A stretch of DNA of 64,000 nucleotides from the NCBI RefSeq assembly GCF_949628265.1, contig NC_088787.1, forward strand, positions 12,452,501 to 12,516,500, read 5' to 3'. Within the stretch, counting starts at the first letter, position 1, and every line of letters starts with the position of its first letter. The DNA comes from Cloeon dipterum (Eukaryota > Arthropoda > Insecta > Ephemeroptera > Baetidae). The translations under genes were made by a program, and so were the position numbers. Under the pieces are notes generated by a model. It did no database searches, had not been told where the DNA came from, and worked only from the letters and a program-made list of their open reading frames with translations. Shown piece by piece: positions 14,001-56,267 of the stretch.

Positions 14001-17000
14001 CAGCCGCCGCAGCCAGGCCAAATATTCGGCTAAGCGGGTCCCGCCAGCCGCCGTCTTAAATATCGCGGCTGAGACCTCTACTCATGAACTATGGCAAGAA
14101 ATTTCTCTGAAGAAGCTGCAATTTTACGAATTTACAGAACGAAACATAAATAAATGGTACCTTGGCCTCCCATTCCATTCCGACGACGACAATGACGGTG
14201 AGAATAACAATGGTGATCGATCCGATAATCCGGACGTCTTGAATGCCACCATCGAAAATGCTGAGATCGTAGGAGCGCAAAAGGTCAGTGAGTGACTCGC
14301 AAAAGCCGACCACGTACATGGAGCAGGCGACTGCATTGGCCAGCGAGAAGATCAGGCCAATGGAGCCACCGAACTCGGGACCGAGCGATCTCGAAATCAT
14401 GTAGTACGTCCCACCTAGAAAAAGCAATTTATAAAATTGCGCCGAAGACGAAAAAACGGAAAAAAGTAACTATAAAAAGCGATTATCTTAGCAGGGCAAC
14501 AACAACAAGTACAACAAGAACAAAGCAAAAGGCAAGGGAGTAATTTGGTGGGAGAAAAGTCAAACGTGTACCTCCTTTGATCTCTCCGTTTGTGCTGATG
14601 GCAGCCATGGAAATGGCCGTAATGGTGGTGACCAAAGTCGTGGCCATAATCAAGAGCATGGCTTCGCCTGAAACGACAACTAACCTATGCAAACACTGGC
14701 TAACCTACATTTTACAAATAAAGCATGGTGTTAAACACGATCAAACGGGGGGCCAAGTGTCGGTTTAGTAAATAGAGTGAATATAGCAACATCGCGCGCA
14801 CGCATACAGGAAAGCTCGGCTCGACCCAGGTCTTACCTCCCTTGATTTGTCCATTGGTGCAAATTGTGGACATGGACAGAGCGGTCACCAGGGTCACAGC
14901 GCTCGCGATCAATATGATTAAAAATGCGTGACCTGAATGTGCAGCAAGATCCCACGTGTCAATGAATGAATGGGGACGATTACACCAGGGTTGCAAAAAA
15001 AAGGAAACGCAAATTTTTAAATAAATGCAGTGAAGTGTTTTTTTAATTTAACCAATTTCATGCTAGCAAAATTCGAATTAATTTTTAAGGCAGAAATTAC
15101 GACTTAAATTTGCAATTTAAACCCTATATTATTGTTTTCTTATTTAAAATTAAGAAAAATAAAACAAATTTTTTTATTTCATTTGCCAAAGGAAATTGGT
15201 AGAGATCGACTGGCAATCGGGTGGAAGTGCAATGCAACCCTGGGTAACAGAAAAAAGGGAGAAAAGGCGACGTACCGATTCCGGCCTGTCCGACCACCCA
15301 CGAGAGACGCAGGAAGAGCATCACGCCCCAGATGTTGAGCAGGCATCGCACCAACACGCCCTGGATCCATCCGAATTTGATCACCCCTTCGCCTTCGTTT
15401 TGCGGCATATTCAGCTGCGTATGGGCCGGCTGCAACAAAAGAAACATATTTCTGGTTTAATAAAATAATATTTCATTTTTGGATGTTTGTGTAAAATTTT
15501 TAAGACGACATCATGTTACGGGTTGAAGGACAAAAACCAACAAAACATAGCCCAGAAATGTACATCTTATTAATTCATTTCTACGTGTTTTTTTCGGGAC
15601 AGTTTTTAAACTATGAGACGTCAGCACCTCATCAATTTAAAAAAGGTGTGCTTTTTCTCGCAAAGTCTGAACGAACTGACGCAAAATTTGATGTCCTAGA
15701 TTAAGGTCTAAAATAACTTATTTAAATTTCGGTTACTAATTAAAATTTTGTAAATGAACTCCGGATTTTGAAATTTAAAAAAATGTGCCTAGAGATTTCC
15801 CAAGGTTTGTTTGAACATGTATAACAATTTCAGAGTGATGTGCTTTTCTATTTTCGAGAAATCCCACTTCAAACCTTGAAAAACATAAATCAATCAATTT
15901 TTATTAAACACTATTATGTGTACAACGAAGAAAATATTACGATTGGTCAGTCTGGGCATTTTCCAGCTTGTGTCAGAATCATCTGGTTTTATCACAACTA
16001 AGAAAATGGTAAAAGCCTATGCTCTCATCACACACAGATAAGTAGAGCTTCGCTATGAAATTCGGTTACTTTACACAGCAAAAAGTGGAAGCCGTGACAG
16101 GCATGGCGTGCTATCGCGTAACACGCGACTTTCCATCTCTGGTCGATCATCGCGGGCGTATCGAAAAACCCCGGCTCTATCCGGAAAATCTTGAACCATT
16201 GGTTTTGGATAAATTTACTGTAATTTTCAGTGTGAGGAAGAGAAGCAGCTAAATCATCAGTAAAGAAGCTAGCGTCGGCCAGTTTATAGGCGAGTCTTGA
16301 TTTCATATATTTGGACAAGCCGCCGAGTGCTCATTTTAAAAATCTCGACTTTAGTGACTCTAGTTTTGCAAAACATAAAAAAATCCGCTTTTCCGTGTTT
16401 AGCAAAGAATGTATACCCCCAAATCTCGGCTTCTAACCATCGGCGTTGCAGAAAGTACCCACCCTTAGACTCGTCTCAACTTTCCCTAATCTGCTTACCC
16501 AACCCATTTCAATCCCTTTGCTTCAATTTGAATATCAAAAAAGTTATCCAGGCTTAACTACCAGCTTACTCTTTATTTCAAAATTTAAATAGTTTATAAT
16601 TCAAATTCAATCCTAAAGAACAAAAATTTCAGCGTGTGAAAGATTTTTACTCTTTTCAAGAAGGTTGTAATGTAAGCAAATTGGAGGTTGCAGCATATAT
16701 TTGCCGGTTGAAAAATAAAATGCAAAAATATAATACATAAATGTCGCCTTTTCGAAATATACAAAGGTTTTGCGTGTGTTGCACGGCTTAAAATGGAGAA
16801 ATTTGAGCCCAAACCGGCTTAAAACGTTAAACCGGCTCATGCAACTCTCAACCAGATTTAAATCTTGGGCACCGCAGGAATTTCAAAACAAGGCAAAGAT
16901 TTTCAAGGATATAATGCGCATTGGAACAATGAATTCATGCATGTCTCGTCCGAAGCGTAGCAATAAATTTGAAATCCTTCCCCGAGGCGATGAAACGCTT

Positions 17001-33788: not shown

Positions 33789-35547
33789 ACCGTGGACGCG
33801 AGCGGCAGCTGCTACAAGCGCTTCCAACCAACACTCAACAGAGGCTAGACAGACCAGACACGTGTTTGAGCTTGTTGCTCCAGCCGAGGCCAACGGCAGC
33901 CCTCCTCCCGGCAGCCCTGACCAATCCCCTCGTCGCCGGCTGCGGCAGGCGCGCGGCAAATTTATTCTCCCTTCCGCCGGGTTCTTGCCGCTGCCGCTAG
34001 AGGCGCTTCAACACATCACGAACGCAACCCTTCACTATACTTGCTCTGGTTGACGCAAAAATGACGTTGAGTAGAGACGAGATGCAAACACTGCGAGTTA
34101 TGAAATTATTTTTGGTGGTATAAAGTGGGCTTCGTGTTTGTGTTAAGATAGGTTTCACTTTGTACGTGAGCCTGTTTTTCCCGGTTTTTCCACGCACGTA
34201 AAATTATTCAAACAAAACTTGACTGCTTTTCTGTTTGCGTTCCTTGTTTAGTTTGCCAACCAAGAGCTGAGTCTATTTAACAAGTTTTGCTGGTGATTTA
34301 TGCCAAATATTTGTATTCAAATCTGGGCCAATATCGCAACTTGATTATTGCAGTCTGCACTGGTTTTAACCACATTGATGAGACTCCGTTGCCGGAATTC
34401 AGAAAATATAATTTGAAAAAATGGTTTAAAAGTTAAGTTGTATGCTATTTCAGTACGATGTAAAATAAAAAAATAAATTTTCACAATACATTCAATGGAA
34501 CCACTGAGAAACCAAACTTCATACTCAATGATATATTTGTGCAATGATTAAAGAACTTTCTTGCCGACTTGATATATGAAAAAACAAAGCTTATTTGGTC
34601 AGCTAGAAGAAAACCATTATTCTTGGTGATGTGAAACCCTCTCTAGGTCATAGATCTACTTTGGTCTAATTGTTGTTTACACAAAAAACCGGTTGTTCGT
34701 TTTTTATATATTTACAGGCAGTCAGTTTTTAAAGTTCTATTTTAAAATCACAATTCTATTTGTGATTTTAAAATTAATTTATTATTCCTTAAGGGATGCA
34801 CATTGGGAAAAATGTGTGTCCTTGGCGACTAGCGTTATATAAACGATAAAAACAGCTTTGACAGCTAAAAGAAATTAATTTTTCTTGATATATATAGATG
34901 AAAAGGATCGTAGTGTGAGAAGCCGGTCACTCTCTGTATGATGTCCAGCCTTGCATCCCTAAGGAGGATAATTTTTTATTGCTTTCAATTTTAATCTTTT
35001 CTCGTGTTTGTCTTATTATTTTAATTCAAGTCAGGAACAACAGAGGCAGAGCGATATCGCCACCTTTTAATTTTTACAGTATTTTATTAATCACTATAAA
35101 AGGGTCACCTTGATGCTTACATTACAAAGTGTGTCAACAGAGATGAACTATACAGGTGGTGCAAAAATATATATTAACAAAAGCAATAGTTGGTATATTG
35201 TATTGTTTTGTTTTAATTATGAAAACGACTAAAATTTACTAAAAGACTGATCGTAAAAATGTAAATCTCACTTCTTGGCTGATAAACCAACTAGATTTAA
35301 AATTGTCAAGCTAGAAACAAACGAAATATATTTGTTGGGACACGTCGTGAACGCAGAGGGCACCAGCTCACGACAATATTTCAATTAAAATAAAATTTGA
35401 TCGATAATTTTTTTTCACTGGAGTAGTCTCCATGCAGCGCCAGCACTTTTACCTATTAATTAGTATTCAAATAATTTTGGATTTTTTTTAACAAATCAAA
35501 GCAGCACCTTTACGTATAAGAAATATTTTATTGAATCTGATTCAACT
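33789..35547. other. Intergenic between the NKCC 5' end and serpin A
   Basis: Bases 33789-34020 are GC-rich and probably hold the NKCC promoter and 5' UTR. No TATA box is evident. The rest is AT-rich with the serpin A poly(A) signal at its right end. No gene seen. Confidence 0.5.
35527..35532 (-). terminator. Poly(A) signal of serpin A
   Basis: AATAAA on minus, 16 bases after the TAG stop (35548-35550). Confidence 0.5.
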
Positions 35548-38500
35548 CTAAGATCTTGGGTCCACAACACGACCCTGGAAGAGGGTGATGCTCCTCTTGT
35601 GCATCAAGTAGAACAAAAAGGGGCGGTCGCAAGTGATAATGTGCTCGTTCAGCTTTGCGGAGATGGCCACTATTTGAATACCTGCAAAATTATCGATAAT
35701 TTGAGCTACTTTTATTCTTTTTTAAAGCCATTACTGGTAGAGGCAGCTGCTTCAGTTCCGTTTTCGTTAATTCCAAAATGTGTTTTCTGGAAAACTTCAG
35801 ACACTCGCAGCCTTTGGCCAGCTGTGCCAGTGAGACCACTCAAATCAGCGTTGTCGCTGAAAATGCTTTTGATGTTCATCTGCAAATTAAACAATTTTAT
35901 AATCAAAATCGAACGAGTTAATTTATTTACGTTTTGCAAAGGTTTGTTCAGACTGGTAGCGAGCTGGAATTGGAATTTGGGCAAATTGAGCGTGATTTCT
36001 TCATCGACAGCCTTTTTAAGGAGTTCCTCGATATTAATGCTTTGCATTGAGTTTTCCAACTGTCTCAGTCCGTTCTTCTCCTTGGGAAGCAGAATCACGA
36101 AACTGTAATCCGGGTCCTGAAAATTTCAAGAATCGTATTGAATTCAGTAAATATATATTTAATTATTTAAAAAATACTTTGTATGGAAGCTCGATAAGTT
36201 CGGTATTCAAATCCTTCAGATCAGCGTATTTGTAGTAGTCCTCTTTCGACATGAATTGAGCATCGACCGCATTTCCTTGGTCCACGTAAAAAGGCCTGGG
36301 CTGAGAGGGACCGTAAAATTGGTACCGCCACGGGCCTCTAAAGTACAGCATATTCAGGATGAGCACCTCTGCGTCCCCATTGAGGTTATCTACACAATAA
36401 GAGTTTATTTATAATGTTTATTGATTAATTTTGAAAATTACCAGTTATGCCGTGAATTCTGTGCCTGGTAACGTTTCTAACCCAGTTGTTGATAATGTCG
36501 ATAGACTCAGTGTTCTTGAAATTCAGCTTGTCAGCCGTTGTGTGGAAAATTCTTTTTGCCCCTTCATTATAAGTCGGTGAGAGGCTAAATTGTTCATTCA
36601 AGAAAATTTTGTTTGCCACCACAACTTTGCTCAAATCCTTTTTAGTCTAGAAGAAAAGAAAAATTAGTCAAACTTATGGTAAAAGTCAAATTTTATTTTC
36701 TTATTTTACATCTGATGAAATGTCACAGTAGGTCGGAGAAATGTTGAAATTATGAGATATGGGATGGTAATTTTGAAGTAGTTCAATATATTTTAAAATA
36801 TTTGTAAGCCCTGAACAAGCATGTTTGCTATTGAAATAGGAAATAGAAGGACGGGGATGTAAGGGGTGGAGGGTAAGCACCCCTTAATCACTTGAGCTGA
36901 CCAGTGTAACGGTGTGTTGCTTTTGCAATTCTGACGGTCAGAACCCGAGATTTGGATTTGCAAATATTTACAAAATAAGAAAAAGTCGAAAAATTCATGT
37001 TTTTTTAGTTTTCAGGTGGAATTTCTAGAAAACAAAAAATAACACGACTCTGAAATTTTCACACAAGTTCACCCATGTCATCAGACAACTTTAAGGCACG
37101 TTTTCAAAATTCCAAAATCCTGAACTCACATTCCCAAAATTAATCAAAAGTCAAAATTAGCAGAGATGACCTGTGACCTTGACTTAGGGCATCAAAGTTA
37201 GTGTCAGTTCGATCGGGCTTGGCGAGAGGAATCCAAAGCACACCTTATAATTGAAATTCCACCATGGGGAAATAAGATACTGAGTTTTTAAAGTTTTCCT
37301 AAATTCTTCCATGACACCAGTAAAAATGGAAAAAAATAAAAAAGTCGAAACATATTTTTACTCGTTACAAGCGACTCCTGGAGCAAATTTGTTTGAATTT
37401 CTCATGCCGATTTTGTAATTAAATCCGTGACATTTCTTCGTCTTACAATTATAGAAAACAAAAAAGAACAATTTTCATTAGAAATTCGCATGTCAATGAT
37501 ATACCTCTAAGCTCTTGAACAAACTGGAAAAGCCTGCATCATGCTGGTTACTCGATTCGAGACCGAGTCCCTGGCTGAGTTCACCTTCGGTCGCACCTTT
37601 CGCACCAAGCCGTGTTAGTGCCAGCGCCAGATAAGCGCTCAAAGGCGAAACGACAACGTTGCCTTGACTTGTCGAGAATTGCTAAAATATACAAATTGGC
37701 TCATTAATCATTTGGTTTGAGAAGGATAATCGCGTATTACCTTAAACAGCTCTCGTCCGAAATTTTGATGGCCCAGCACGATTTTCTCGAAGTCATTTGC
37801 CGTTGCACAGCTGGTGAGAAGCAGGGCGCAAATCACAACTGTTGGAACAAATTAAATATTTATTGCAAACCCCTATAAAATCCATGTTGCGAGTTTTGCA
37901 TAAGAATTCTGTTGAAGAAAAGGAAGCGCTAAACAATTTTAGAAAATAACTGCAAAGTTAGTATGCTTTTTAAACGGCGAGGACTGTCTCTTTACTTGAA
38001 ATTTTATTTTATTTCTCAACATTGAGTTTTCTCAGAAGGTTTCGATAGATCTCGGTGAACGGAATCGAAATTGCCAAGAAAATGTGGTAAAATAAGAGTT
38101 TTAAATTTTAATCTGCAAAATTTTAATTGGAACAAAAAATGGTCTTTCTTTTTTATTATTGAACCTAATAGAAATTAAAAAAAAATCATTTGGAGATGGA
38201 ATTTAAGACGACCGATTTTTTTCTGTGGGTTGAATTACTTATAAGACACCAAAGAAATACGAACACGCAACTAAAATCATCTCATACCGTCTATTAAAGC
38301 CCGGAACCATCTGGAACTGCTAAAAATTCATCTAAAAATTCTCTTGTAGAGCCTGATAATTCTTTAAAAGAACGCCAAATTATTTCAATAATCGGGTTGC
38401 CTTTAAAAATTAACTGCTATATTTTTCAAGAAACATAAATTTTGTGTTTTTCCTAGTTCTATTAAAAAATAACTATGATTTTATATTGAGAGTGATTTAT

Positions 38501-41283: not shown

Positions 41284-43221
41284 TTAAAAAATGTGTTGCT
41301 TGGGTGGTTTTGTGACTTGGCCCCCAATCAAAATATGATTGAATTTGAAAATTAGGAAAAATAAAAACGGGTGGTCACATTTAAAAACTAGGCCACTGTC
41401 TGCTTTCTCAGGGTCCAGAAAATCTGCTGTAATTCAGAAAGATATATAATTAATAAAAAAATGTATCGCTGTCATTTGCCAACATGCAGCTACCTGAATG
41501 AGTTGCATTATCTTTAACGCCATCTTCACTGACCTCCACACGCACCTTTTGTACGAATTTGGATACCTTTTCAAGCCTTCAGCAGAGCTGATTCCTGACA
41601 AGTCCACATTTTCAGAGAAGATATGGCCAAGTCCCATCTGATGGCAATTAACTTGTACAAAATTTTTCAAATTTCAAATATATATTTACTCTTGATACAA
41701 CATTGATGATGTCCAAAGTAGTCTCGATCTCAAACTTTGGCAGAAAAACTTCCACTGCTGTAATATTGCCTGATAACAAAATAGGACGCAGATTTACCGA
41801 GGCCAACTTTTCCATCATTTCATTGAGGCCTTCATTCGTGTTTGGCAAAAGTATTGCCATGCTCACCTTAAGACCCTTTTTATTTACACACATCATTGTT
41901 AAAAAAGGCATTTCAATCATAGAGACAGATTTTTACTTTGTAGGATAAGATCAGCATTTGGGCGTCCAGCTCATCAATTTTTTTGTAAAGAAAACGTTCC
42001 TTTTGGTGCATGAACGGGACTTTGATGCTGTTGGTTTCGTCGGTGAAGAAGGGTAGGATGTGAGTATTTTCCATCTTGAAGGGCTTCAGCCACACGCCCT
42101 TGAAGTGGATAGCGTTGACCACAAACATGCGTGTTGAATCGTCAAAGGAATCTAAAAGATAAAAAATTGGATTTTGTGTATATTTTTCTCATGTCGAAAT
42201 GTTACGAGTCGGAGAACTAAAATGGCACCACTTTAAAATTTTCAAAATATCACACATATGTCATGGCACATTTTCAAAATTCCAAAATCCTATGAGATCA
42301 AATTTTCAATTTAATTTAATTAAAATAAAAACTAACCTTTGATCTTGACCTGTATGTAGGACCTAAATTGTTGCACCACGGGGAGATAAGATACTGAGAG
42401 GTCTCGAAGTTTGTCAAAAATGTCAAGTAAACCCCGTAAAAATGAATATTTAGTCAAAAAATGAAATGTATGCAAATCGGCTTGTTAATACTGATCACCG
42501 GGCGAAAATTTCATTCAGTTTGCTTGACGCGATGCCAATTTTGTCCTTCGACCCGTGACATTTCGTCTCATGTTTTATATATGTCTTTTAATTTAAAAAA
42601 AATAACCCACTGGAATCAACAAGGTTTTGGATCTGTTTTGTGGTCCTCTTGGAGACCCAGTTATTAATGTTGTCGGCGGTTGAAGGGCCAGTAAACGCAA
42701 TTCTCTCAAGTTTATCTTCAAAGTACTTTTTTGTAATTGAAGTGAATGTTTTTGAAACTGAAGTACCGTCCTTGATGTAAATCCTGTTGGCAACTAACAG
42801 CTTCATTTTTTGGGCCTTCTGTTGGAGACTTACAATTTTGAGAACTGCGCACACCTTTAAATAAACGCCTTTATTTACCTTGAGCAGCTTGATCATTTTT
42901 CTCAGTCCTTTTAAAGCAAGCTTAAAGTCTTCTGGAAGACGCAATTCCTCAGCAATCTTATTTTTAGACTTGCCTTTCGCCCCAGTGCAAATCATGGCCA
43001 AAGAGATCAGACAACATAAGGGCGAAGCAACTACGTTTCCAGTTTCGGCCAGATTCAAAACCTAAAATTTTTATAATAAATAAATAAGTAGGTTTTATTC
43101 GTGGTAGGGAAAAATATTTTTCTTTCTAAAAACTTAACAAACAACCTACTCTGAAAAATTCTTGGCTGAATTCTACGTTTCCGTGTGCAATCATATCAAA
43201 TGGGTCTCCTGGGCCCGCCAT
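41284..43221 (-). pseudogene. Serpin B, frameshifted serpin with degenerate hinge
   Basis: Seven exons in the same layout as serpins C and D: 43221-43150, 43061-42879, 42818-42611, 42151-41937, 41875-41690, 41637-41494 and 41426-41284. Exons 1-5 read through with serpin motifs (NVVASPLCCLISLAMICTGA, LLVANRIYIKD, FVVNAIHFKGVWLKPF, FLPKFEIETTLD). Exon 6 has two extra A bases in GGCTTGAAAAGGTATCC, where serpin D reads CTGAAGGTTTCC. This breaks the frame before the hinge; past it the old frame is still legible as EVSEDGVKDNATHS. The hinge has lost the small residues (VKDNATHS instead of TEAAAATG) needed for loop insertion. The last exon is intact (FKCDHPFLFFLIF, ending HIF). Either a recent pseudogene, a non-inhibitory serpin with an assembly error, or a frameshifted allele. 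Confidence 0.75.
42190..42420. repeat. Fragment of the 'ttcaaaattccaaaatcc' family in serpin B intron 3
   Basis: 'acatatgtcatggcacattt', 'tcaaaattccaaaatccta', 'ctttgatcttgacct' and 'accacggggagataagatac' match 36760-37290 and 10580-10810. Confidence 0.5.
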
Positions 43222-43418
43222 GGCTGAAAGAGCAATCAACGTCGAAAGGTGAAAATGGACGATGGAGTTGAATGTGTGTTAAAGGAATTTCACCGCTCTC
43301 AACCATGCTCAGTAAAATGCCGGACACATGCATTTTGTGCATTGTTAAGATGTCGGTAAAGGAACAAACAATACAATTTTTATTTTTATCAAATTCTTAC
43401 AATATAGCTGTCTCTGGA

Positions 43419-45763: not shown

Positions 45764-48009
45764 TTAGGCAGGGTTAGTGACTCGGCCTCCGAAAATGACG
45801 AAGGAGCGGTCGTAAGTCAGGTAGAAGACGAACGGATGGTCGCATTTAATGGATGGTGGTCTCTTAATCGTCATGCCATCAGACATGACAATCGCTGCAA
45901 CCAAAAGAGATTATAGATTCATATTATTATAATCCTTGGACTAAAAATTGGGAATTAGATAAATTTCCTTAGGTTACATATGCCAGTTAAATTTCTGAGA
46001 AAATTGGCTGCAAAGTTTTAATGATAATCAAGCACTGGCTCCTTATTTCGCCATAAGGGAAGTTTAGCTCATAATTGGCACACCACAAATACAGCTAAAG
46101 CCATTCAACTTTTCGAGACATTTGGCAAAATCTGAAATTTAACAGTAACTTTTGGTCCTATTATCTTATTTGTTCATTTTAGACATAAACTGCCGCTAAA
46201 TTTTAAAACATAACCACTTGCTAAATAAACACAGCAAATCTTTTGTAACCTGTAGCCGCTGCAGCCTCCGTGCCAACCTCATTGACCTCGATAAACGCCT
46301 TCTGCATGACCTTCGACACCTTCAGGTTGTTCGCTCCAGACGGACTGATTCCAGAGAAATCGACATTGTCAGAGAAGATGTGCTCGAGTCCCATCTGAAC
46401 AAAGTTCGTTAGTAAAAGAATCACAAAATGGACTGAAAACCTTAGTCAGATATTTTCCAAGATCCAGGGAGGTCTCGACTTTGAACTTGGGCAAGTACAC
46501 CACCATATCGCCCTCAAGGCCAGAGTTCAGAATTTCGCTCAGATTTGCAGTGGCCAGTTTTTCCTCCAATTCCTTCAAACCATCTCTCTTGTTCGGCAAA
46601 ATGATCTCCATGCTGAGGTCACGGCCCTGAAACATTTCTATGAAAAAATATACAAGGATGTATAACAAAACATTTACTCTGTAATACATGCTGATCAATT
46701 GGGCGTCCAGCTCCTCAAGATTCTTGTGAGGCAGGTAGGTGTTTTTGTACATGAACGGCACATCGACCGTTTTCTCATTGTCAATGTAGAATGGCATGTT
46801 GCGTGTACGGCTCTCGTCAAATTGGTGTTGCCAGGTGCCGTTGAAGTAGACGGCGTTGACCAAGACGAGGCGGGTGAAAGTATCGAAGGAGTCTATGAAA
46901 TTAAATTTTTGTAAATATTAACTGGGTCTGTGAGGGAAATTTTGGACTAGTGGTTCATATAATACTCACGTTGCATTTTAAAGACCAACTTTAACGACGT
47001 TTCTGAGCATACCAATCGATTCTTGAGGGTCGCATTAAGTAAATTGGATGTTTTTCCGACTAAAAAGTCCAGCGCGACGTGTGTAGCACAAGTAGGACTT
47101 TTTTACCGCTAAAACTATTTGAACCTATATGCGAGAAGTGCGCATGCGTTAGAGCTGGCTGGATCTGACAAAGAAGTCATTTGTACAGGCGGTCTCTTTG
47201 CAAGTGCTCAAACCAGCTCTGACGCATGCGCACTTCTCGCAAAACCATATTGTTTTGGCGGGAAAAAAGTTTGCACGTAGCGCTGGACTTTTTGGTCGGA
47301 ATAAATATCCTTTTAACCTAATTCAATAACCCTCAAGAATCGATTGGTGTGCTCAGAAACTTCGTCATAGACGGTTTTTAAAGGAAAAGATAATGTATTT
47401 TTTAGTTTGCTTTAAAATTGCTTACCCGTGTCGACGAGGTTCTTAATTTTATTATTGGTCTGCTTGGCAACCCAATCATTGATTTTTTCAACGGTCTCTG
47501 GCTCCATAAACACGACGTTCTCAGCTTCGATGTCAAAATACTGTTTCAATGATGAAGAGTAATCCTCAGCAATAGGGGAATCCTTCCTGATGTAAATCTT
47601 GTTGGCGACCGCCAGCTCCACGTTTCTTGTTTCCTAAAATGTGGACTTTTAGTTTTAATTTCAACACAAAGCGTTTCTCTTTTGAAAAGTCTACCTGAAA
47701 CATTTTCATCATTCGAGACAGTCCTTCCAAGGCTGTCGTAAGGTTGTCAGGCAAATGGAGGCCCCTGGCTATTTTCAGGATGGACTCTCCTTTAGCTCCA
47801 GCCAAAGCCATGGCCAAAGCGATCAGACAACTGATCGGCGAGTGGACCAAGTTTCCATTCTGGCCCTCGGCTACCTCCTAAAAAATTTAATAGGTAAATT
47901 TATCAAAAACAGAATTCGAGGCAAATTAAATGCAATATTTCTTTACCTTCGAGAATTTCTGACAGTAGCCAATGTTCCCTCTCTTCACCTTCTGAAAGGG
48001 TGTACTCAT
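45764..48009 (-). CDS. Serpin C, 7 coding exons, 376 aa, single reactive-loop exon
   Basis: Exons on minus: 48009-47947, 47877-47695, 47633-47426, 46892-46678, 46626-46441, 46394-46250 and 45894-45764. They total 1131 nt with all phases consistent. Motifs: [74 protein letters not shown], then hinge [10 protein letters not shown], which is of inhibitory type. The last exon encodes [15 protein letters not shown], the conserved [10 protein letters not shown], and [10 protein letters not shown]. By antitrypsin spacing P1 falls on Gly7 of the exon or a neighbour, so the target is unclear. The first coding exon begins MSTPFQKV with no signal peptide in that exon, and an AG directly precedes the C of CATG, so an upstream exon may add one. 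Closest relative is serpin D. Confidence 0.88.
46977..47385. repeat. Foldback element in serpin C intron 3
   Basis: Outer arms 'accaatcgattcttgagggt' near 47010 and inverted at about 47325-47350, middle arms 'aaaaagtccagcgc' and 'gcgctggactttttgg', inner arms 'gcgagaagtgcgcatgcg' and 'cgcatgcgcacttctcgc'. Arms are about 190 bp. Related to 22050-22530. Confidence 0.8.
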
Positions 48010-49975
48010 GCTGATTTTGGTTGATTTTCTTCACGCGGAGATTTGAAAATGTTGGGTTGGCCAATATGGTATGCTATGCTTAACACAATCTGAAACAGAT
48101 ATTGAGATGATAATTTAAATTATTTTTAAAAAGTTGTGTACTGTCGTTATAAAGATTTTAAAATTACAATAAGACGTGCAAACAAATTATTTTAACTGTC
48201 TGTTCTGCACTGAAAATGTATAACTCACTATACCCTCAAACCGCGCGGGAAGTAAGTCGTGAAAATAAGACTTTCTTGCTAAAGTCTAGTCTAGACGCTT
48301 ATCAAAGTCTCATGATTGTGAAGTCTCATATTGATATTGCATTTAAAACTGTAATATTTTCAATAAATATGAAACTAAGGGGGTTGGTGGTTCCAATCCG
48401 TGTGTTGCATGAAAGCCTTAATTACATAATTTTATCTAAATTTTACTCCAATTTTTCCTAATTTCAATTTTGATGTCTTTTATTTTAATCGTTTTAGAGA
48501 TTTGGGAAAATATACAAAATGTTAAAATAGTTTATATTATGATATAGATTTAATTTTATTTTAAATGAAAATAGCTTGATCAAAATTGCAAAATATTTAA
48601 CTATGAAAAAAACAAGGTCTGTGTGTTGTGGGTGCGGGTAAGACTTTTTTCATTTGAACGAAATTAATTTGTGCAGTTATAATAAAGACTCTCCATGCAG
48701 TTCCCAGCATAGAGGAGTGTGCGTGCACAATATTATACGCACTAGATTCCAATTGGCGCGTTCTTATCAGCCGTCACATAAAGGTGCAATACATATATTG
48801 GGGCTTCGGTCCGTTCAAAAAACGAAGTAGGTTTCTAAATACCACAAATTTCTAAATAAAATTAGAAAGGAAAAATTAAGAAAAATCAGATTTACATCAA
48901 TAAAATTAAAGCATGATGATTTTCTCCTCTGCATTAGTTCACCTTTAAATTTTATAAGCACTATATTATCAAATATTAAATAAGTCTTTATCAGTTGCCA
49001 CGTCTAAAGGGGGAAGTATTTTTGATTAGTATAATATATAATATCGTCAGCCGCAACTTTTAATATGTTATAGGTGAAACAAGGTTTTTCGGGCACTAAA
49101 AGGCGCAACGAGCTGATTATTCCTCCACCGCAATACAACGTACCTGGCGTGACGATCAGGATCACATGTATCTATACGTTGAGAACCGACACCCAAGACT
49201 TTGTTAAAATAAAAGTAAGACTTTTGTAGAGGCGCGACGCGCGACACTCCTGCGGACACTCCCTCTTTTTCAACATAGCTGCTACTGCTATCGCTGTCCA
49301 AACATTGTCGTGGATTGGCTGGAGATTTGGTAAGCAACAGCGGGAACGAAAGTTTTTTGACTCCCCAGGATTGTTCTGTAAGGAGAGCAGAGGTGATAAA
49401 AGATAAGCCTCGAATAAGAGAAAAAGGAACAAGCCTCTAATTTTCCTTGGATGAAGTGATCTGGAGGTTTTAAAAAAACAGCCTAGCATTTTCCAATTAA
49501 ATAAGTTTTATTCAACTTGATCAATCATGAATACATTTGGAATAATGTGTTACACACGCGTTTATTTATTATTTAAGTAGTACACTTTACTCAAAGCGAC
49601 AGGTAAAAGAACGTGTTTTTGGTAAAAAGGACGTATATATAATATCTATCACCGCAATTTTATAAGTAGCAAAATCTTGTGCACAAAAAGACGGTTAATG
49701 ACTTACGAAGGGCAAACCAATATAGCAGCTCTGGGCATGCAAGATTTGTATTTCAATTAAACACTTTTATAAAGTACTGGCATGATTTCCCTATTTCATA
49801 TTATGGAACATTGTACAAATTTACTTTTCAACTTTCATTTCTCATTTTGCGCAGACCTTATGTACGTCCGAGCATCTATGAATAAGTCAAAGAATAAAAA
49901 TGAGACTTTGTAAAATAATGATCATAAAACAAAACATAGTTTTTGGCAATCGGTACAGTTGCCAGAATTTATTTA
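48010..49975. other. Stretch between serpin C and the last alternative exon of serpin D
   Basis: Presumably the serpin C promoter and 5' UTR on the right-to-left reading. A weak candidate for a decayed loop exon at about 49183-49302 is discussed in the findings. No other gene seen. Confidence 0.45.
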
Positions 49976-50130
49976 TTATTCGTCATTATTTGTCACAGGT
50001 AGTTTAATAATATGACCAGAGAAAAGAACAACGGGTGCAGCATATCGGTGCTTGCGGTGAGTCAAGAAATAGGCAAAAGGTCTGTCGCACTGCAAATACG
50101 GTCCGCGGAAAATGCTATCGGAGTACACAG
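49976..50130 (-). CDS. Serpin D alternative last exon 9 (reactive loop AVYSDSIFRG)
   Basis: Acceptor AATTTCAG, then CT completing the split Ala codon from constitutive exon 6, and a TAA stop at 49978-49976. Encodes AVYSDSIFRGPYLQ, CDRPFAYFLTHRKHRYAAPV and VLFSGHIIKLPVTNNDE. The serpin C-terminal pattern DRPF...LFSG is conserved, but the tail is longer than in exons 1-6 and acidic. By antitrypsin spacing P1 is Ile, P1' Phe. A tttatt (AATAAA on minus) overlaps the stop. Confidence 0.82.
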
Positions 50131-50269
50131 CTGAAATTAAAGAGAGAAACATTGTAAACTTCCAAGTTGAAAGCTATTAACATTATTTGCCAAGCTTTGT
50201 GTTTATTTGAAATATAGAGTCTAGCAAATGCACAGCGCTGCAAATATATTGGACTGGACGGCATTGAAC

Positions 50270-50403
50270 TCAAGGACTGATCAATCTGCCACTGAAGATG
50301 CAATTATGTGACTTTTGTTGGACTAGGGCAAAGAAGAATGGGCGGTCTGCCATGAATTTTGGCGGAGGCTGGATTGCCATCATGCGGGTCGCGATAATGG
50401 CAG
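50270..50403 (-). CDS. Serpin D alternative last exon 8 (reactive loop AAIIATRMMA)
   Basis: Strong acceptor TTTTTGCAG, CT joins the Ala codon, TGA stop. Encodes AAIIATRMMAIQPPPKFM, then ADRPFFFALVQQKSHN and CIFSGRLISP. P1 by antitrypsin spacing is Arg followed by Met, which predicts trypsin-like targets. An AATAAA lies about 65 bases after the stop. Confidence 0.86.
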
Positions 50404-50661
50404 CTGCAAAAATTTAATGTCATCGATTTAGTTCTTACAATCCTTACAATCTAGAGTGTCAGATGGAAGAAATGCACGTGCACGATGCGAAATTACAGTT
50501 CAACGACAAACAAAAGCAATAATAATAATAATTGAATGAATATACAAGAAAAGCTTGTCTCAATCTTCAAAACTTATTCCACCATGTGTATCACATTAAT
50601 TTATATTGTCTAATACATTGTTCCAGCCCTGCGAAATTAAAAAATAAATAATGCGAGCATC

Positions 50662-50822
50662 TCAAAGTTCATCTTTCACAATCGCCATGTTTGGGAAATT
50701 GAGGACGCGCCCAGAAAACAATATGTTCGTCTTGATAACCAAATTAAAGATGAACGGGTGGTCAGCGTCAAAAACAATTCGGTCAATTTCAAAGGCACTC
50801 CGCTTCATTCTGATAACTGCAG
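50662..50822 (-). CDS. Serpin D alternative last exon 7 (furin-type R-M-K-R loop, C-terminal KDEL)
   Basis: Acceptor CTGTCCAG, CT joins the Ala codon, TGA stop at 50664-50662. Encodes AAVIRMKRSAFEIDRIVF, DADHPFIFNLVIKTN, ILFSGRVLNFPNM and AIVKDEL. Aligning the S-A after the scissile bond with exon 6 puts R-M-K-R at P4-P1 in a loop one residue longer. R-X-K-R is the furin/proprotein-convertase consensus. KDEL at the extreme C-terminus is a canonical ER-retrieval signal. Drosophila Spn4A, made from the orthologous gene structure, likewise pairs a multibasic loop with an HDEL tail and inhibits furin. An upstream signal peptide would be needed for this isoform to work. Confidence 0.9.
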
Positions 50823-51307
50823 CTGGACAGAATGACAACACGTCACTAATGTTATCACAATAATAAAATTGGGGCATGCAAAATAACACATTATCGTTTC
50901 TCCTCAAAATTCAATAAAATATGATATTATTATTATTAAAAAGCTTTTAAGCTTTATTAGTAAGTTTTATTGTCTGATCAAATGCTTGCTGGTGATGAGA
51001 AAGTGAAACATTCGAATATGCAGCTAAGAAATGCAAGAAAAGCATTGATTTGCGGCAATTGGACAGGAAAAGAGGCTGCATCACATAAATTATGTAGTCA
51101 TAGATCGAAATTAAAAATTAAAGCCTATATTGATAAAAATGCTGACAAAAGTGAGAAGCGGCATCTAGTTAAATTAACGGTCCGCAATTAATCTTGTAGG
51201 GTTAACGGAACAGCTCATCACTTTTTTAATCAAATGACCTAAAAAATATGGATTATTGATGTTTATATTCTCATTCAAGTCCCAAAATTTGACTTACGAG
51301 TCTCAAG

Positions 51308-51444
51308 CTAAGCAGGGTTTGTGACTCTTCCTCCGAAAAGCACATGAGTGCTTTTAAAATTAAGGTAGAAGACGAATGGATGGTCACATTTCAAAACTGG
51401 CAGCCTCTGCGGCAAGAGGGCCGACATTGCCATGATGTTTACGG
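51308..51444 (-). CDS. Serpin D alternative last exon 6 (reactive loop AVNIMAM-S)
   Basis: Acceptor TTCTGCCCCAAAAG, CC completes Ala, TAG stop. Encodes [39 protein letters not shown] and RVTNPA. P1 Met, P1' Ser by antitrypsin spacing, the same pair as alpha-1-antitrypsin. Nearly identical to exon 5, including the upstream intron, so the pair duplicated recently. Confidence 0.9.
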
Positions 51445-51761
51445 CTTTTGGGGCAGAAAGTCGATTTAGTATTGGAATTTAAAATGATGGGATAAGTCTT
51501 TACTGTGACAATAAGATCAGCCACATTGAAATGAGAAATGAACAAACTTGGTAAAAGCAGGACGCAATTCAAACAGCGTGAAAGCAAGAAAAGCGTGTTG
51601 TTTGGCAATTAGACTTAATCACTCATCACTTGAATTTAAAATAAATATATAAATAGGACAGCTTTTAAGGTATATGAACGGTTTTAAAAGCTTAACTGAA
51701 ATTACGAATGAATAGTATTTATTGAGAAACGGATTTAAGTCGATGACTTACAAGTCTCAAG

Positions 51762-51898
51762 CTAAGCAGGGTTTGTGACTCTTCCTCCGAAAAGCATATG
51801 GGTGCTTTTAAAATTAAGGTAGAAGACGAACGGGTGGTCACAATCCATAACTGGCAGCCTCTGCGGCAAAAGGGCCGACAATGCCATGATCTTTACGG
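51762..51898 (-). CDS. Serpin D alternative last exon 5 (reactive loop AVKIMAL-S)
   Basis: Acceptor TTCTGCTCCAAAAG, CC completes Ala, TAG stop. Encodes [39 protein letters not shown] and RVTNPA. P1 Leu, P1' Ser. The differences from exon 6 fall mainly at P5 and P1 and next to the loop. AATAAA is about 40 bases after the stop. Confidence 0.9.
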
Positions 51899-52191
51899 CT
51901 TTTGGAGCAGAAAGTCAATTTAGTATTGGAATTCAAAATGATGGGATAAGTCTTTACTGTGACAATATAAGATCAACCACATTGAAAGAAGAAATGAACA
52001 AACTTGGTAAAAGCAGGACGCAAGCAGTGTGAAAGACAAGAAAAGCATAGTTGTTAGGCAATTGGATTAAAAAAAAATATATTAAAATAGGAAAGCTTTG
52101 TAAGGTATATGAATGGCCTCAAAATCTCAACTGAAATTACGAAATAGAATTGAGAAACGGATTTAAGTCGGTGACTTACAAGTCGCAAAAG

Positions 52192-52328
52192 CTAAACAGG
52201 GTTTGAGACTCTGCCTCCAAAAACATGGGCGCGTTTGAAATTGAGGTAGAAGACGAACGGATGGTCGCATTTCACTATTGGCGACCGCTCCAGCAACAGA
52301 GGCGAGCATCCGAGGCGTAACATTACGG
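52192..52328 (-). CDS. Serpin D alternative last exon 4 (reactive loop AVMLRLGCSP)
   Basis: Acceptor TTCTGCCCCAAAAG, CC completes Ala, TAG stop. Encodes [39 protein letters not shown] and RVSNPV. P1 by antitrypsin spacing is Gly, with Leu or Cys adjacent, so the target is unclear. The framework is nearly identical to exon 2. Confidence 0.87.
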
Positions 52329-52719
52329 CTTTTGGGGCAGAAAATGGATTGTTATTAATGTAGAGTTTTAATTCAAAATTAAGAGATTGAATACTACCAC
52401 ACTGGAATTAGGATTAAAAAGTTGGCAAAGGCAAGATGCACATAGTTTAGTGTGGTTTAGTGGTATTCTGACTGAATCAACTAACAATAAGATAATTATT
52501 ACATCAAACTAAATAATAATAACATCTTTAATGACTTTTGACGAAGTCATGCATCAGACAGAAATAGCTAAAGACGTCAGATAATAATAATATTTATTGG
52601 AGATAAATGGACGGTCCGTAAAAAACGTTGTAAGGCTAACAGAATAGCTCATCCCACCTACAAAAATTCCGAATGAATAATAAGAAACCGGTGTAAGTCA
52701 ATAACTTACAAGTCACAAG

Positions 52720-52856
52720 CTAATTGTAAGCAGGGTTTCTGACTCTGCCTCCGAAAACATGGGTGCGTTTGAAATTGAGGTAGAAGACAAACGGATGGTC
52801 ACATTTCACGATTGGCGACTGCATCGGAAAATAGGCACAGTACGCCATGGCCATAA
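52720..52856 (-). CDS. Serpin D alternative last exon 3 (reactive loop VMAMAYCAYF)
   Basis: Acceptor TTCTGTCCCAAAAAAG, TT makes Val, TAG stop. Encodes [37 protein letters not shown] and RVRNPAYN. P1 by antitrypsin spacing is Cys with Tyr at P2, so a chymotrypsin-like target is possible. Pairs with exon 1. Confidence 0.87.
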
Positions 52857-53411
52857 CTTTTTTGGGACAGAAAATAATTTTAAAATAAATTTGATATGTA
52901 AGTGCAAAATGATGTGATGAGCCTTTACTGAATAAAATGAGAAAAAAACCAACGCGGCGAAAGTATGACGCAAACAGCGTGAAAAATAAGCACTTTTGTC
53001 GCAATTAGCCTTTGAATTGAATTGAGTTTATTTGTTTATTTGGAATTTATAGTCTTTACAGAATGAAAATCACCACATTGAAATTAGAAAAGAGAAACGA
53101 TGCAAAAGCTTGATGCGAAATTCACGAAAAGCGCAATTAACAAGGCAAGGCGTCGGCTGGGTACGGCGCTTTGAAAAATGTAGCAAAGCGAGTTTTCAAA
53201 ACTTTTGCGACATAGCTGGTATTAAAAAAATAAAAAGGAGCCGATTTATGAAAAAATAGCTAAGTAAGAAACGTCACTCAGACATGGACGGTTTTGCAAT
53301 AAATCTTGTAGGGTTAACGGGGCAGCTCAATCTGTTTTTAATCAATCCTACAAAAATCACGAAAGAATATAGTATGGGATGGACTTCAATCGATGACTTA
53401 CAAGTCACAAA

Positions 53412-53542
53412 CTAAACAGGGTTTCTGACTCTGCCTCCGAAAACATGGGTGCGTTTGAAATTGAGGTAGAAGACGAACGGATGGTCGCATTCCACGATTG
53501 GCGATTGCTCTGGCAAAAAGGCTGAACCTCCTAAGCCTAAGG
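53412..53542 (-). CDS. Serpin D alternative last exon 2 (reactive loop ALGLGGSAFL)
   Basis: Acceptor CTTCTGCCCCTTAAG, CC completes Ala, TAG stop. Encodes [37 protein letters not shown] and RVRNPV. Two codons shorter than exon 4. P1 Ser, P1' Ala by spacing, so elastase-like targets are possible. Confidence 0.86.
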
Positions 53543-53895
53543 CTTAAGGGGCAGAAGATGTTTTGATATAAAAGATGTGAGTAAATATTACCACATTGAT
53601 ATTAGGATTAACAATCGTTGCAAAAACAAGATGCATATAGTTAAGTGTGGTTTAGTGGTAGTTTTAATGCATCTCACTTTAAAATTAAATCAAACAAAAT
53701 AATAATGATCTATAATGACAAAACTAACTTAAGAAGACGTCACATAATACTAATATTTATTGGAGATCAATGGACGGTCTGCAAATTGTTTTTGAAAGGC
53801 TAACAGAACAGCACATCTAATTTTTAATCGCACCTACAAAAATTCCGGATGAATAGTAAGAAACCAATGAAAGTTAATAACTTACAAGTCACAAA

Positions 53896-54038
53896 CTAAT
53901 TGTAAGAAGGGTTTGTAACTCTGCCTTCGAAAACATGGGTGCTTTTGAAATTCAGGTAAAAGATGAATGGATGGTCACAATTCACGATCAACGACTGCAT
54001 CGCACACTTCTTAGCAAACATGGCGCACAAGCGCATAA
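53896..54038 (-). CDS. Serpin D alternative last exon 1 (reactive loop VMRLCAMFAK)
   Basis: Acceptor TTCTGCCCCAAAAAAG, TT makes Val, TAG stop. Encodes VMRLCAMFAKKCAMQSLIVN, CDHPFIFYLNFKSTHVFEG and RVTNPSYN. P1 Met by spacing. The first Gly of the usual FGGR is Glu (FEGR) here, a small departure in strand s5B, but the exon is otherwise intact. Confidence 0.85.
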
Positions 54039-54247
54039 CTTTTTTGGGGCAGAAAATAATTTTAAAATGCAAAACGATGCGATGAGCCTAGACTGAATAA
54101 AATGAGGAAAAACCAACGCGGCAAAAGTATGACGCAAACAACGTGAAAAATAAGAAAAGCACCAGCTCTGTCACAATTGGCCAGAATGAATTCATCGACG
54201 AGTTATTATAACAACTCATTGCTTTAACGGATTAAAGTTAATTGAAA

Positions 54248-54380
54248 CTAAGCAGGGTGAGTGACACTGCCTCCGAAAACCACATTGGTTCGTTATCGTT
54301 TAAAGTCAAATGGACGATGGTCTCATTCCAGGATAAGTAACATCTCCGCCAGGAAGTCCGTATTAACAGAACTGATTTAA
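54248..54380 (-). pseudogene. Decayed serpin D loop exon (pseudo-exon), nearest to the constitutive exons
   Basis: The acceptor TTTGCTGCTCCAAAAG and the C-terminal codons FGGSVTHPA then TAG are preserved, and DHRPFDFKR corresponds to [11 protein letters not shown]. But this frame contains an in-frame TAA (DFKR-stop), several codons of the [11 protein letters not shown] core are missing or changed, and the loop part is in another frame. It is the tenth copy of the array and cannot give a full serpin C-terminus. Confidence 0.78.
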
Positions 54381-54505
54381 CTTTTGGAGCAGCAAATAAA
54401 TGATAAATTTAAGCATGAAAAATGTGATTGAGCCTTTAGTGAATGAAAATTGCCACAAACTCGGCCAAAGCACGACATCAACGTGAAGTATTGACTTAAA
54501 TTTAC

Positions 54506-55846
54506 CTGTGGCAGCGGCAGCCTCAGTGCCCTCCTCACTGACCTCTATAAATGCCTTCTGCACGACTTTGGAAACCTTCAGTTCATCAGCTGTGCTGATT
54601 CCGGTCAGGTTCACGTCGTCAGAGAAAATGTGGCTCAGCCCCATCTAAACAAGAACAATTTAAAACAAACTCGACCAAATATATGGGAAGGACAAACCTT
54701 GGACAAATGATCAACTAGATTCAAAGAAGTCTCGATCTTAAACTTGGGCAGGTACACCTCCACATCCCTGGGGTATCCAGATTGCAGGAGTTCTCCGAGG
54801 TCTGCAGTGGCCAATTTTTCCTCCAACTCTTTCAGGCCTTCCTTCTTATTTGGCAAAATGATTGCCATGCTCAGCTCAAGACCCTTAATTAAACATCATT
54901 GACTAGAATATAGGCACTTCCTGTAATCCCGAGATGATTTACCTCATAGGGCATGACCAGTAGTTGGGCGTCCAGCTCATCCAGTTTCCTGTAGGGAAAG
55001 TGCGTCTTCTGGTACATGAACGGAACTTCGACGCTGTTATTTTCGTCGGTGAAGAAGGGCCTGTTGTGAGTCTTGTCCTTCTTGAAAGGCTTCAGCCACG
55101 GGCCCTTGAAGTAGATGGCGTTGACCAGAACCAAGCGAGTCATGCCGTCAAAGGAATCTTAAGAAGCAAATATAAAAAATCCACTTGTGTTTTATAATTG
55201 ATTCAAATTAACTCACTGGAATCAACGAGGTTTTGGATCTTATCCTTGGTCTGCTTGGAGACCCAATCGTTGATCTTGTCCGCAGTTGAGGGGTCAGTGA
55301 ACACGACGTTCTCCGCTTCAACCTGGAAGTACTTCTCGAGAGCCGTGGAGTACTCTTCCAAAATAGGGAAGTCCTGCTTGACGTAGATCTTGTTGGCAAT
55401 CGACAGCTCCACTTTTTGCGCTTCCTTTTGTCGGGAATAAGTTAATCTCGAACCTAAATTACCCTAGAAAATCGTACCCTGAGCTGTTGTACCACTTCAG
55501 AGAGCCCCTTCAAAGCGTCCGTGATGTTCTCAGGCAGACGCAGTCCCCTGGCGATTTTCGGGATCGAATCTCCCTTTGCCCCAGCGTGAGCCATCGCCAG
55601 GGCAATCAGACAACTCATGGGCGAGGAAACCAAGTTTCCGGGCTCGGCTTCAGCCACTACCTAAAGTACACTTTATTAAAATCATGCACCACTTGGTCAA
55701 ACAAGGAAAAAAGCTAAACTGGCCGGAAAAAATTATAAAATCCGCGTTGATTTGAATACTTCGCATCAGGACGTATATCTTACCCTGTAGAATTCTCGGC
55801 TGAATTCCGAGTTTCCCTTCGCTACAGCTTCAAATGGAGTATCCAT
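54506..55846 (-). CDS. Serpin D constitutive exons 1-6 (Spn42Da/serpin-1-like gene with alternative reactive-loop exons)
   Basis: An inhibitory serpin body of 331 codons shared by all isoforms. Exons on minus: 55846-55784, 55660-55478, 55424-55217, 55157-54943, 54883-54698 and 54644-54506, ending in phase 1. Motifs: [78 protein letters not shown] and the hinge [11 protein letters not shown] with the ideal inhibitory sequence. Joining any of the nine downstream loop exons gives about 370-386 aa. The coding start MDTPFEAV is preceded in frame by VFLLLLLLIAPAA, which may be a real signal-peptide tail spliced from an upstream exon (acceptor GCATTACAG) or may just be the polypyrimidine tract of an acceptor at TGCAG|CCATGG. 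Cytosolic and secreted forms could both exist, as for Drosophila Spn42Da. Confidence 0.92.
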
Positions 55847-56267
55847 GGCTGCAGGAGCAATCAACAGCAGCAACAGAAGAAAGACTGTAATGCAACGAGT
55901 GAATGGGAATGATTCATCGATGGATAAATGAAGGAGTGGTTCAAATAGATAAAGAGCGCTGTTTGTGATAAAAATACTCGTGAATAAATATTTGAGAGGA
56001 ACAAACATTAGATTTGTCATGATTTCACTGTTTCTGTAGTGCAAATAAATTTGAAAAAAAAACTTTGAACAGAGCAAATCAGTCAGGTTTAATTTTTGTT
56101 CCCACGAAAAGAATGGCCGTGTTTTTTAGATTGCATAAGTTTTGGCAATCACTCGAATTTGATTTTCTTCATTTCCTTTCTGTGGAACTGATTATTTTGT
56201 AGACTACTGCTCCAATGAATCATGCGAAATTACGTGTTCTGGCGCCGATTTTATCTAATCTGCTTCG

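Follow-up and report, generated by a model that had tools for sequence, protein, structure and literature searches.

A predicted array of nine alternative reactive-loop exons behind one serpin body

Drosophila Spn42Da (Spn4) places alternative reactive-loop last exons, one of them of the furin type, behind a single serpin body, and Manduca sexta serpin-1 carries tandem alternative loop exons on one body, with 14 copies of its exon 9 (PMC5691223). In PpSerpin-1 of Pteromalus puparum, the split that precedes the C-terminal alternative exons lies behind the hinge and includes an extra G, and these exons are reported to have a higher ratio of nonsynonymous to synonymous substitution rates (dN/dS) than the constitutive ones (PMC10513286). 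The same source describes C-terminal alternative splicing in 192 of the 731 genes of one insect serpin clade, with a mean of 7.32 proteins per gene, a split just past the hinge with an extra G (+1) in 161 of these 192 genes, and, for serpins, a tendency of alternative splicing and gene duplication to vary inversely (PMC10513286). Here we analyse a window of 64 kb, the whole stretch C2:12452501-12516500 of a 190-Mb eukaryote assembly, within which positions are counted from its first letter. Its minus strand contains a gene, serpin D, in which one constitutive body is followed by nine candidate terminal exons, and which appears to be of the same kind as Spn42Da, Manduca serpin-1 and PpSerpin-1. 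The likeness to the first two had been proposed in an initial annotation of this DNA; it is supported by the anatomy of the gene, the pattern of selection on its exons and the literature. We put at about 0.88 the probability that serpin D is one inhibitory serpin gene with nine usable alternative versions of its last coding exon, exon 6 being joined to one of the nine. We infer that transcription would pass through the body and that exon 6 would then be spliced to one of the nine terminal exons, so that the serpin fold would stay the same whereas the reactive loop, and with it the protease target, would change with each choice.

The body consists of six constitutive exons that run on the minus strand from the ATG at 55846 to 54506, 994 nt in total, and end in phase 1: exon 1 (55784..55846), exon 2 (55478..55660), exon 3 (55217..55424), exon 4 (54943..55157), exon 5 (54698..54883) and exon 6 (54506..54644), which ends in the hinge and one G. 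These coordinates agree with the six exons, inhibitory hinge and phase initially annotated. The introns between them measure 123, 53, 59, 59 and 53 nt and have GT/AG ends. The 331 encoded residues match the Pfam serpin profile PF00079 with an E-value of 8.1e-102 over profile positions 2-328 and close with a consensus inhibitory hinge, so that the body of an inhibitory serpin is complete. Of the arthropod entries among solved structures, 4p0f ('serine protease inhibitor 4, isoform B') scores best, at E 1.4e-66; we take it to be Drosophila Spn42Da. The ATG at 55846 is a provisional start: 5' of it the frame stays open and hydrophobic, with the in-frame run CITVFLLLLLLIAPAA directly upstream of exon 1 and in-frame ATGs at 56020 and 56008. 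A search for a spliced signal-peptide exon 5' of serpin D gave no candidate.

Downstream of exon 6 on the same strand, between 54038 and 49976, lie the nine terminal exons, and, as initially annotated, all nine join exon 6 in frame at phase 1 and have a stop of their own; it comes after 43-51 residues. Six of them form a tandem family: T1 (VMRLCAMFAKKCAMQSLIVNCDHPF..., 53896..54038), T2 (ALGLGGSAFLPEQSPIVECDHPF..., 53412..53542), T3 (VMAMAYCAYFPMQSPIVKCDHPF..., 52720..52856), T4 (AVMLRLGCSPLLLERSPIVKCDHPF..., 52192..52328), T5 (AVKIMALSALLPQRLPVMDCDHPF..., 51762..51898) and T6 (AVNIMAMSALLPQRLPVLKCDHPF..., 51308..51444). They are followed by T7 (50662..50816), T8 (AAIIATRMMAIQPPPKFMADRPF..., 50270..50403) and T9 (AVYSDSIFRGPYLQCDRPF..., 49976..50130), the last of which has the shortest loop. 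Between exon 6 and T1, at about 54238..54400 on the minus strand, there is also a decayed tenth terminal exon, T0, which is interrupted by two in-frame stops, has suffered a short deletion and is not followed by GTAAGT. The split after the hinge with a +1 G in all nine exons of serpin D is that of the 161 of 192 insect genes described in PMC10513286; the 21 C-terminal forms of PpSerpin-1 were all shown there by reverse transcription PCR, whereas the nine of serpin D are predicted from sequence. Spn42Da has four loop exons, against nine and a relic in serpin D, six of whose exons constitute a family of modules with a putative intron in the untranslated region (UTR).

The C-terminal frame of these exons is conserved; in Spn42Da, too, the swapped region has conserved H-P-F and F.G clusters (PMC4006314). 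The HPF...GR signature first assigned to all of them holds in large part: HPF is present in seven of the nine and G-R in eight, T8 and T9 having RPF and T9 having G-H. The distance from exon start to HPF or RPF varies from 16 to 22 residues, and the earlier P1 assignments, if made by simple counting, are therefore unsafe. We scanned for an AG followed by a phase-1 open frame of 30-75 residues with a D[HR]PF-like and then an F.G[RH]-like motif. On the minus strand of the window this yields 12 exons (nine in the array and one each in serpins A, B and C), and none on the plus strand. The same scan of 100 first-order Markov sequences of 64 kb gives nine exons in total and at most two per sequence; chance is excluded as the origin of the array. 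The terminal exons also complete the serpin profile. Exon 6 alone scores 53.7 bits against PF00079, and this rises to 77.7 with T1, 85.1 with T6, 81.5 with T7, 94.6 with T8 and 74.7 with T9, a gain of 21-41 bits per exon for these five of the nine; T2-T5, taken with the final 15 residues of exon 6, score 36.0-43.8 bits in Pfam. These features confirm the array of intact candidate reactive-loop exons behind one serpin body.

The exons T1-T6 resemble each other beyond their coding parts. Each has an invariant GTAAGT 10-12 nt 3' of its stop and an acceptor 49-59 nt further on, which delimit a candidate UTR intron of 59 nt in T6 (51239..51297, minus strand, with GTAAGT 10 nt after the stop and the acceptor TTTTTTAG) and of 49-56 nt after T1-T5. 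All body introns but the first, at 53-59 nt, are of about this length. A stop so near to a donor is not expected to trigger decay. GTAAGT also stands at or just 3' of the stop in serpin C, a neighbour in the window, and in the paralogues E, G, H and N located elsewhere on C2, and in the last four a similar post-stop donor-acceptor pair can be read by eye. As the searches revealed a single terminal exon apiece in C, E, G, H and N, the simplest reading of the post-stop intron is that it is local and lies in the UTR. No GTAAGT occurs within 260 nt after the stops of T7-T9. In N, a serpin fragment at C2:1504500-1508000, the GTAAGT donor overlaps the stop TAG, again as read by eye.

AATAAA follows T1 (53756..53761, minus strand) and T3 (52593..52598, minus strand), at a site where the paralogues H and N also have it and E and G do not. 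Other AATAAA sites lie at 53040, 53032, 51723 (within the UTR intron of T5), 50971, 50958, 50207, 49977 and 49973, those at 49977 and 49973 belonging to T9, where the former overlaps the stop. T1-T6 are thus best described as last-exon modules, some of which may use a common later polyadenylation (poly(A)) site. The 'mutually exclusive' use initially proposed is a poorer fit to exons that seem to have a UTR intron of their own and, in T1 and T3, an AATAAA. We suppose that T1-T6 arose by local tandem expansion of one module, made of the coding terminal exon, the short post-stop intron and a UTR exon; T7-T9 are mutually unlike and probably older than T1-T6.

In Manduca serpin-1 the copies of exon 9 splice to a shared UTR exon 10. 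A similar arrangement in serpin D, with strict mutually exclusive cassette exons whose donors are all joined to the same distal UTR exon, is the alternative that survives best. It would give a use to the post-stop donors of T1-T6, and T2 and T4-T6, which have no AATAAA of their own at the homologous site, could share the pairs at 53040/53032 or 50971/50958. We nevertheless hold it to be unlikely: T7-T9 lack the donor, every one of T1-T6 has an acceptor at the distance of a typical body intron, and the similar pair in E, G, H and N, with their one terminal exon found, indicates that the intron is probably local. If serpin D has nine alternative last exons, as we favour, it differs from Manduca serpin-1 in that its UTR introns would be local and its poly(A) signals in part separate. 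Dscam-type docking/selector splicing was considered as well for the start of the post-exon-6 intron. Pairing between the first 116 nt of this intron and the 160 nt upstream of each terminal exon gave no signal for any of the nine exons, 10-94 of 100 shuffles being as low in duplex energy, and no exact complementary match of 9 nt to the same 116 nt was found in the 200 nt upstream of any of the nine; this mode of choice was rejected for a docking site within those 116 nt.

The substitutions among T1-T6 bear on whether these exons are used. In the 24-codon frame from CDHPF to NP, dN ranges from 0 to 0.09 and dS from 0.07 to 0.92, and dN is lower than dS in 15 of 15 pairs, although in T2/T4 the two are nearly equal (0.055 vs 0.067). 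In the loops, right-aligned without gaps so that the values are rough, dN is close to dS and exceeds it in five of the 14 computable pairs. Because of this difference between frame and loop, T1-T6 behave as coding sequences with a frame under purifying selection and loops free to change. We compared the divergence of loop, frame and flanks in six pairs of units. T1 and T3 differ at 17 of 52 positions in the loop, 10 of 84 in the frame, 7 of 102 upstream and 10 of 88 downstream, and the loop has diverged faster than the flanking non-coding DNA (17/52 vs 17/190, p = 6e-5); in this pair the change of the loop was probably pushed by selection. Pooling T1/T3, T5/T6 and T2/T4 gives ratios of synonymous to nonsynonymous changes of 9/8 in the frame and 14/37 in the loop (p = 0.077).

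One could also imagine a graveyard of decaying exons, with use limited to one or two (e.g., T7 and T8) and T1-T6 as passive recent tandem repeats. T0 is clearly dead, the units of T1-T6 are indeed DNA repeats, and loops with dN close to dS are what such a process would leave. Yet the open frame, the acceptor and the post-stop donor are kept in six of six repeats whose upstream flanks differ by up to 47%, and purifying selection on the frame in all pairs is difficult to reconcile with passive copies; we regard this scenario as improbable.

A number of observations weigh against nine usable exons, or against parts of this reading. First, the faster change of the loop is clear in only one of the six pairs, T1/T3. 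In T5/T6 the loop (6/56) does not differ significantly from the upstream flank (6/118, p = 0.20), and the same holds in T2/T4 (16/53 vs 23/100, p = 0.34); in both pairs the downstream flanks (35/84 and 35/95, respectively) diverge more than the loops. In T4/T5, T3/T4 and T2/T3 loops and upstream flanks diverge to about the same extent (0.36-0.45 vs 0.42-0.47). The low divergence of the frame could moreover be due in part to gene conversion. Second, the acceptors of T1-T6 end in AAG and not CAG (CCAAAAG or CCAAAAAAG in T1 and T3-T6, CCTTAAG in T2) and may be weak. Third, an AATAAA at the homologous site exists only in T1 and T3, so that T2 and T4-T6 would need later or variant signals. Fourth, T9 finds a match in Pfam only when the hinge is included. 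Fifth, the usual count to P1 is 17 residues, and the Arg before the cut in T7, the furin-type exon discussed below, stands at position 16 with the exon start at 50816 and at 18 with an acceptor 6 nt upstream. Finally, the joins of exon 6 to T1-T9 are themselves read from the DNA alone.

The exon T7 stands apart from the others by its loop, I-R-M-K-R|S, and its C-terminus, KDEL followed by the stop. It thereby combines two marks of a furin-type serpin retained in the endoplasmic reticulum (ER), the dibasic KR|S site and an ER retrieval signal. Secretory-pathway serpins of this type include lancelet Spn-1 (NMMKR|S and KDEL) and sea urchin Spn-1 (TMTKR|S and HEEL), and Drosophila Spn4 has a furin-inhibiting form with an ER signal, Spn4A (PMC2556349). 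T7 has in common with this group the KR|S cleavage motif, and with the lancelet protein the KDEL end. In the account given there the deuterostome serpins are individual genes, whereas in serpin D the signature is on one of nine exons, and the relation of arthropod to deuterostome secretory-pathway serpins is called open (PMC2556349). The loop repertoire of serpin D had initially been viewed as its own; for T7 this does not stand, as it matches the published signature of furin inhibitors with KDEL. There are 13 residues between the Arg before the cut and the His of HPF in T7, against 14 in the A/B loop of Spn42Da, from P1 Arg342 to His357 (PMC4006314). These features would be best explained if the product of T7 inhibited furin-like proprotein convertases and was retained in the ER. 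Such a form needs a signal peptide, and the 5' end of the gene matters in this respect. Two acceptors 6 nt apart precede T7 (CAG|CTGCAG|, 50816-50822); use of the one upstream, with an exon start at 50822, would add two residues to the furin-type loop. Every Drosophila species studied is described as having retained the furin loop, with duplication and divergence of other loop exons (PMC2770083). If T7 was kept here while T1-T6 expanded, this would match the Drosophila pattern as that source presents it.

We searched the genome for other arrays. A search with T5 as the query gave at least 20 matches, seven in the array (T1-T7) and 13 at as many loci elsewhere, of which the weakest has an E-value of 0.21; these counts are lower bounds, and the query missed T8 and T9 and is blind to exons so diverged. 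In the motif scan of 12 other serpin regions, which covered one strand of each, no region had more than one exon, seven having one and five none. In four of these five (L012, L013, L015 and L019) tblastn (E <= 0.001) revealed one terminal exon; the fifth (L017) had no tblastn match, and the Pfam search lists in it one terminal match at C5:14194203-14194316. Within these lower bounds, and with a T5 query blind to T8- or T9-like exons, serpin D is the only array found in the assembly. The paralogues E, G and H are located at C2:1.59-1.62 Mb, about 11 Mb away, with one terminal exon each. Their bodies are 80-82% identical to that of D, those of serpins C and B 64% and 56%, respectively (290-307 aligned positions, 282 for B), and the fragment N has 25 aligned positions to D. 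A misassembly in which the repeats of the array are copies of E, G and H, whose terminal units do group with T1 and T3, is so improbable as to be negligible, since the loops and flanks of T1-T6 are unlike one another and unlike those of E, G and H, and these paralogues lie far away with bodies of their own.

The relations of these genes to the array may tell us about the order of events. In a tree of 11 terminal units (longer alignment), {T1, T3, E, G, H, N} and {T2, T4, T5, T6, C} are split at 96/97, with six of the eight inner branches open; a tree of the frame only supports none of the eight. With C taken as outgroup, this one supported split suggests that the array already comprised two types when the duplications leading to D, E, G and H took place, and that no module but one of the T1/T3 type went with the copies. 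Tentatively, with the odds somewhat against it, one may go further and propose that D exported its body with a T1/T3-type terminal module to give rise to the single-loop genes E, G and H, and the fragment N. The duplicating unit would then have been a self-contained last-exon module (loop exon, UTR intron of 49-59 nt and UTR exon) and not a simple cassette exon; D would have kept the whole array, including the furin-type exon, and truncated duplication would have made separate genes out of splice isoforms. With an array gene and single-loop paralogues in one genome, ordering the events would directly test the relation between splicing and duplication as formulated in PMC10513286.

Serpin D is thus a clean further case of serpin loop-exon arrays. 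We claim no novelty for it; the details added to what PMC10513286 describes would be that its modules have UTR introns, that one exon in the array of nine is of the furin/KDEL type and that the genome also contains single-loop paralogues. The predicted furin-type isoform, which should stay in the ER, and the six related loops, of which the T1/T3 pair diverged faster than its flanks, provide testable targets.

The strand of D also carries serpins A (35528-37851), B (41284-43278) and C (45764-48010), for each of which a single terminal exon was found. An intron of serpin C contains nested inverted repeats (46977-47382) that look like a small foldback element, with outer arms of 54 nt that are 87% complementary and further arms of 34 nt (91%) and 31 nt (90%). 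Read by eye, open reading frames on the minus strand at 13254-15456 resemble a sodium-potassium-chloride cotransporter, and one at 3902-4321, also on the minus strand, resembles an exon of an alpha-mannosidase. The ligand domain of the retinoid X receptor in this assembly has as its nearest solved relatives 1z5x, the USP of the whitefly Bemisia, and RXR-alpha, while 1hg4 and 1g2n, the fly and moth USPs, score far lower; the source is thus likely to be an arthropod other than a fly or a moth. Runs of TTAGG or TCAGG gave 0 matches in a DNA search that skips simple repeats, and 14 stretches taken from contig starts or ends contained AT-rich satellites or other sequence but no telomere array. Elsewhere on C2 (8963136-8963273) there is, as the only COX1 match in the assembly, a COX1-like fragment of 46 positions with two stop codons, perhaps a nuclear mitochondrial copy.

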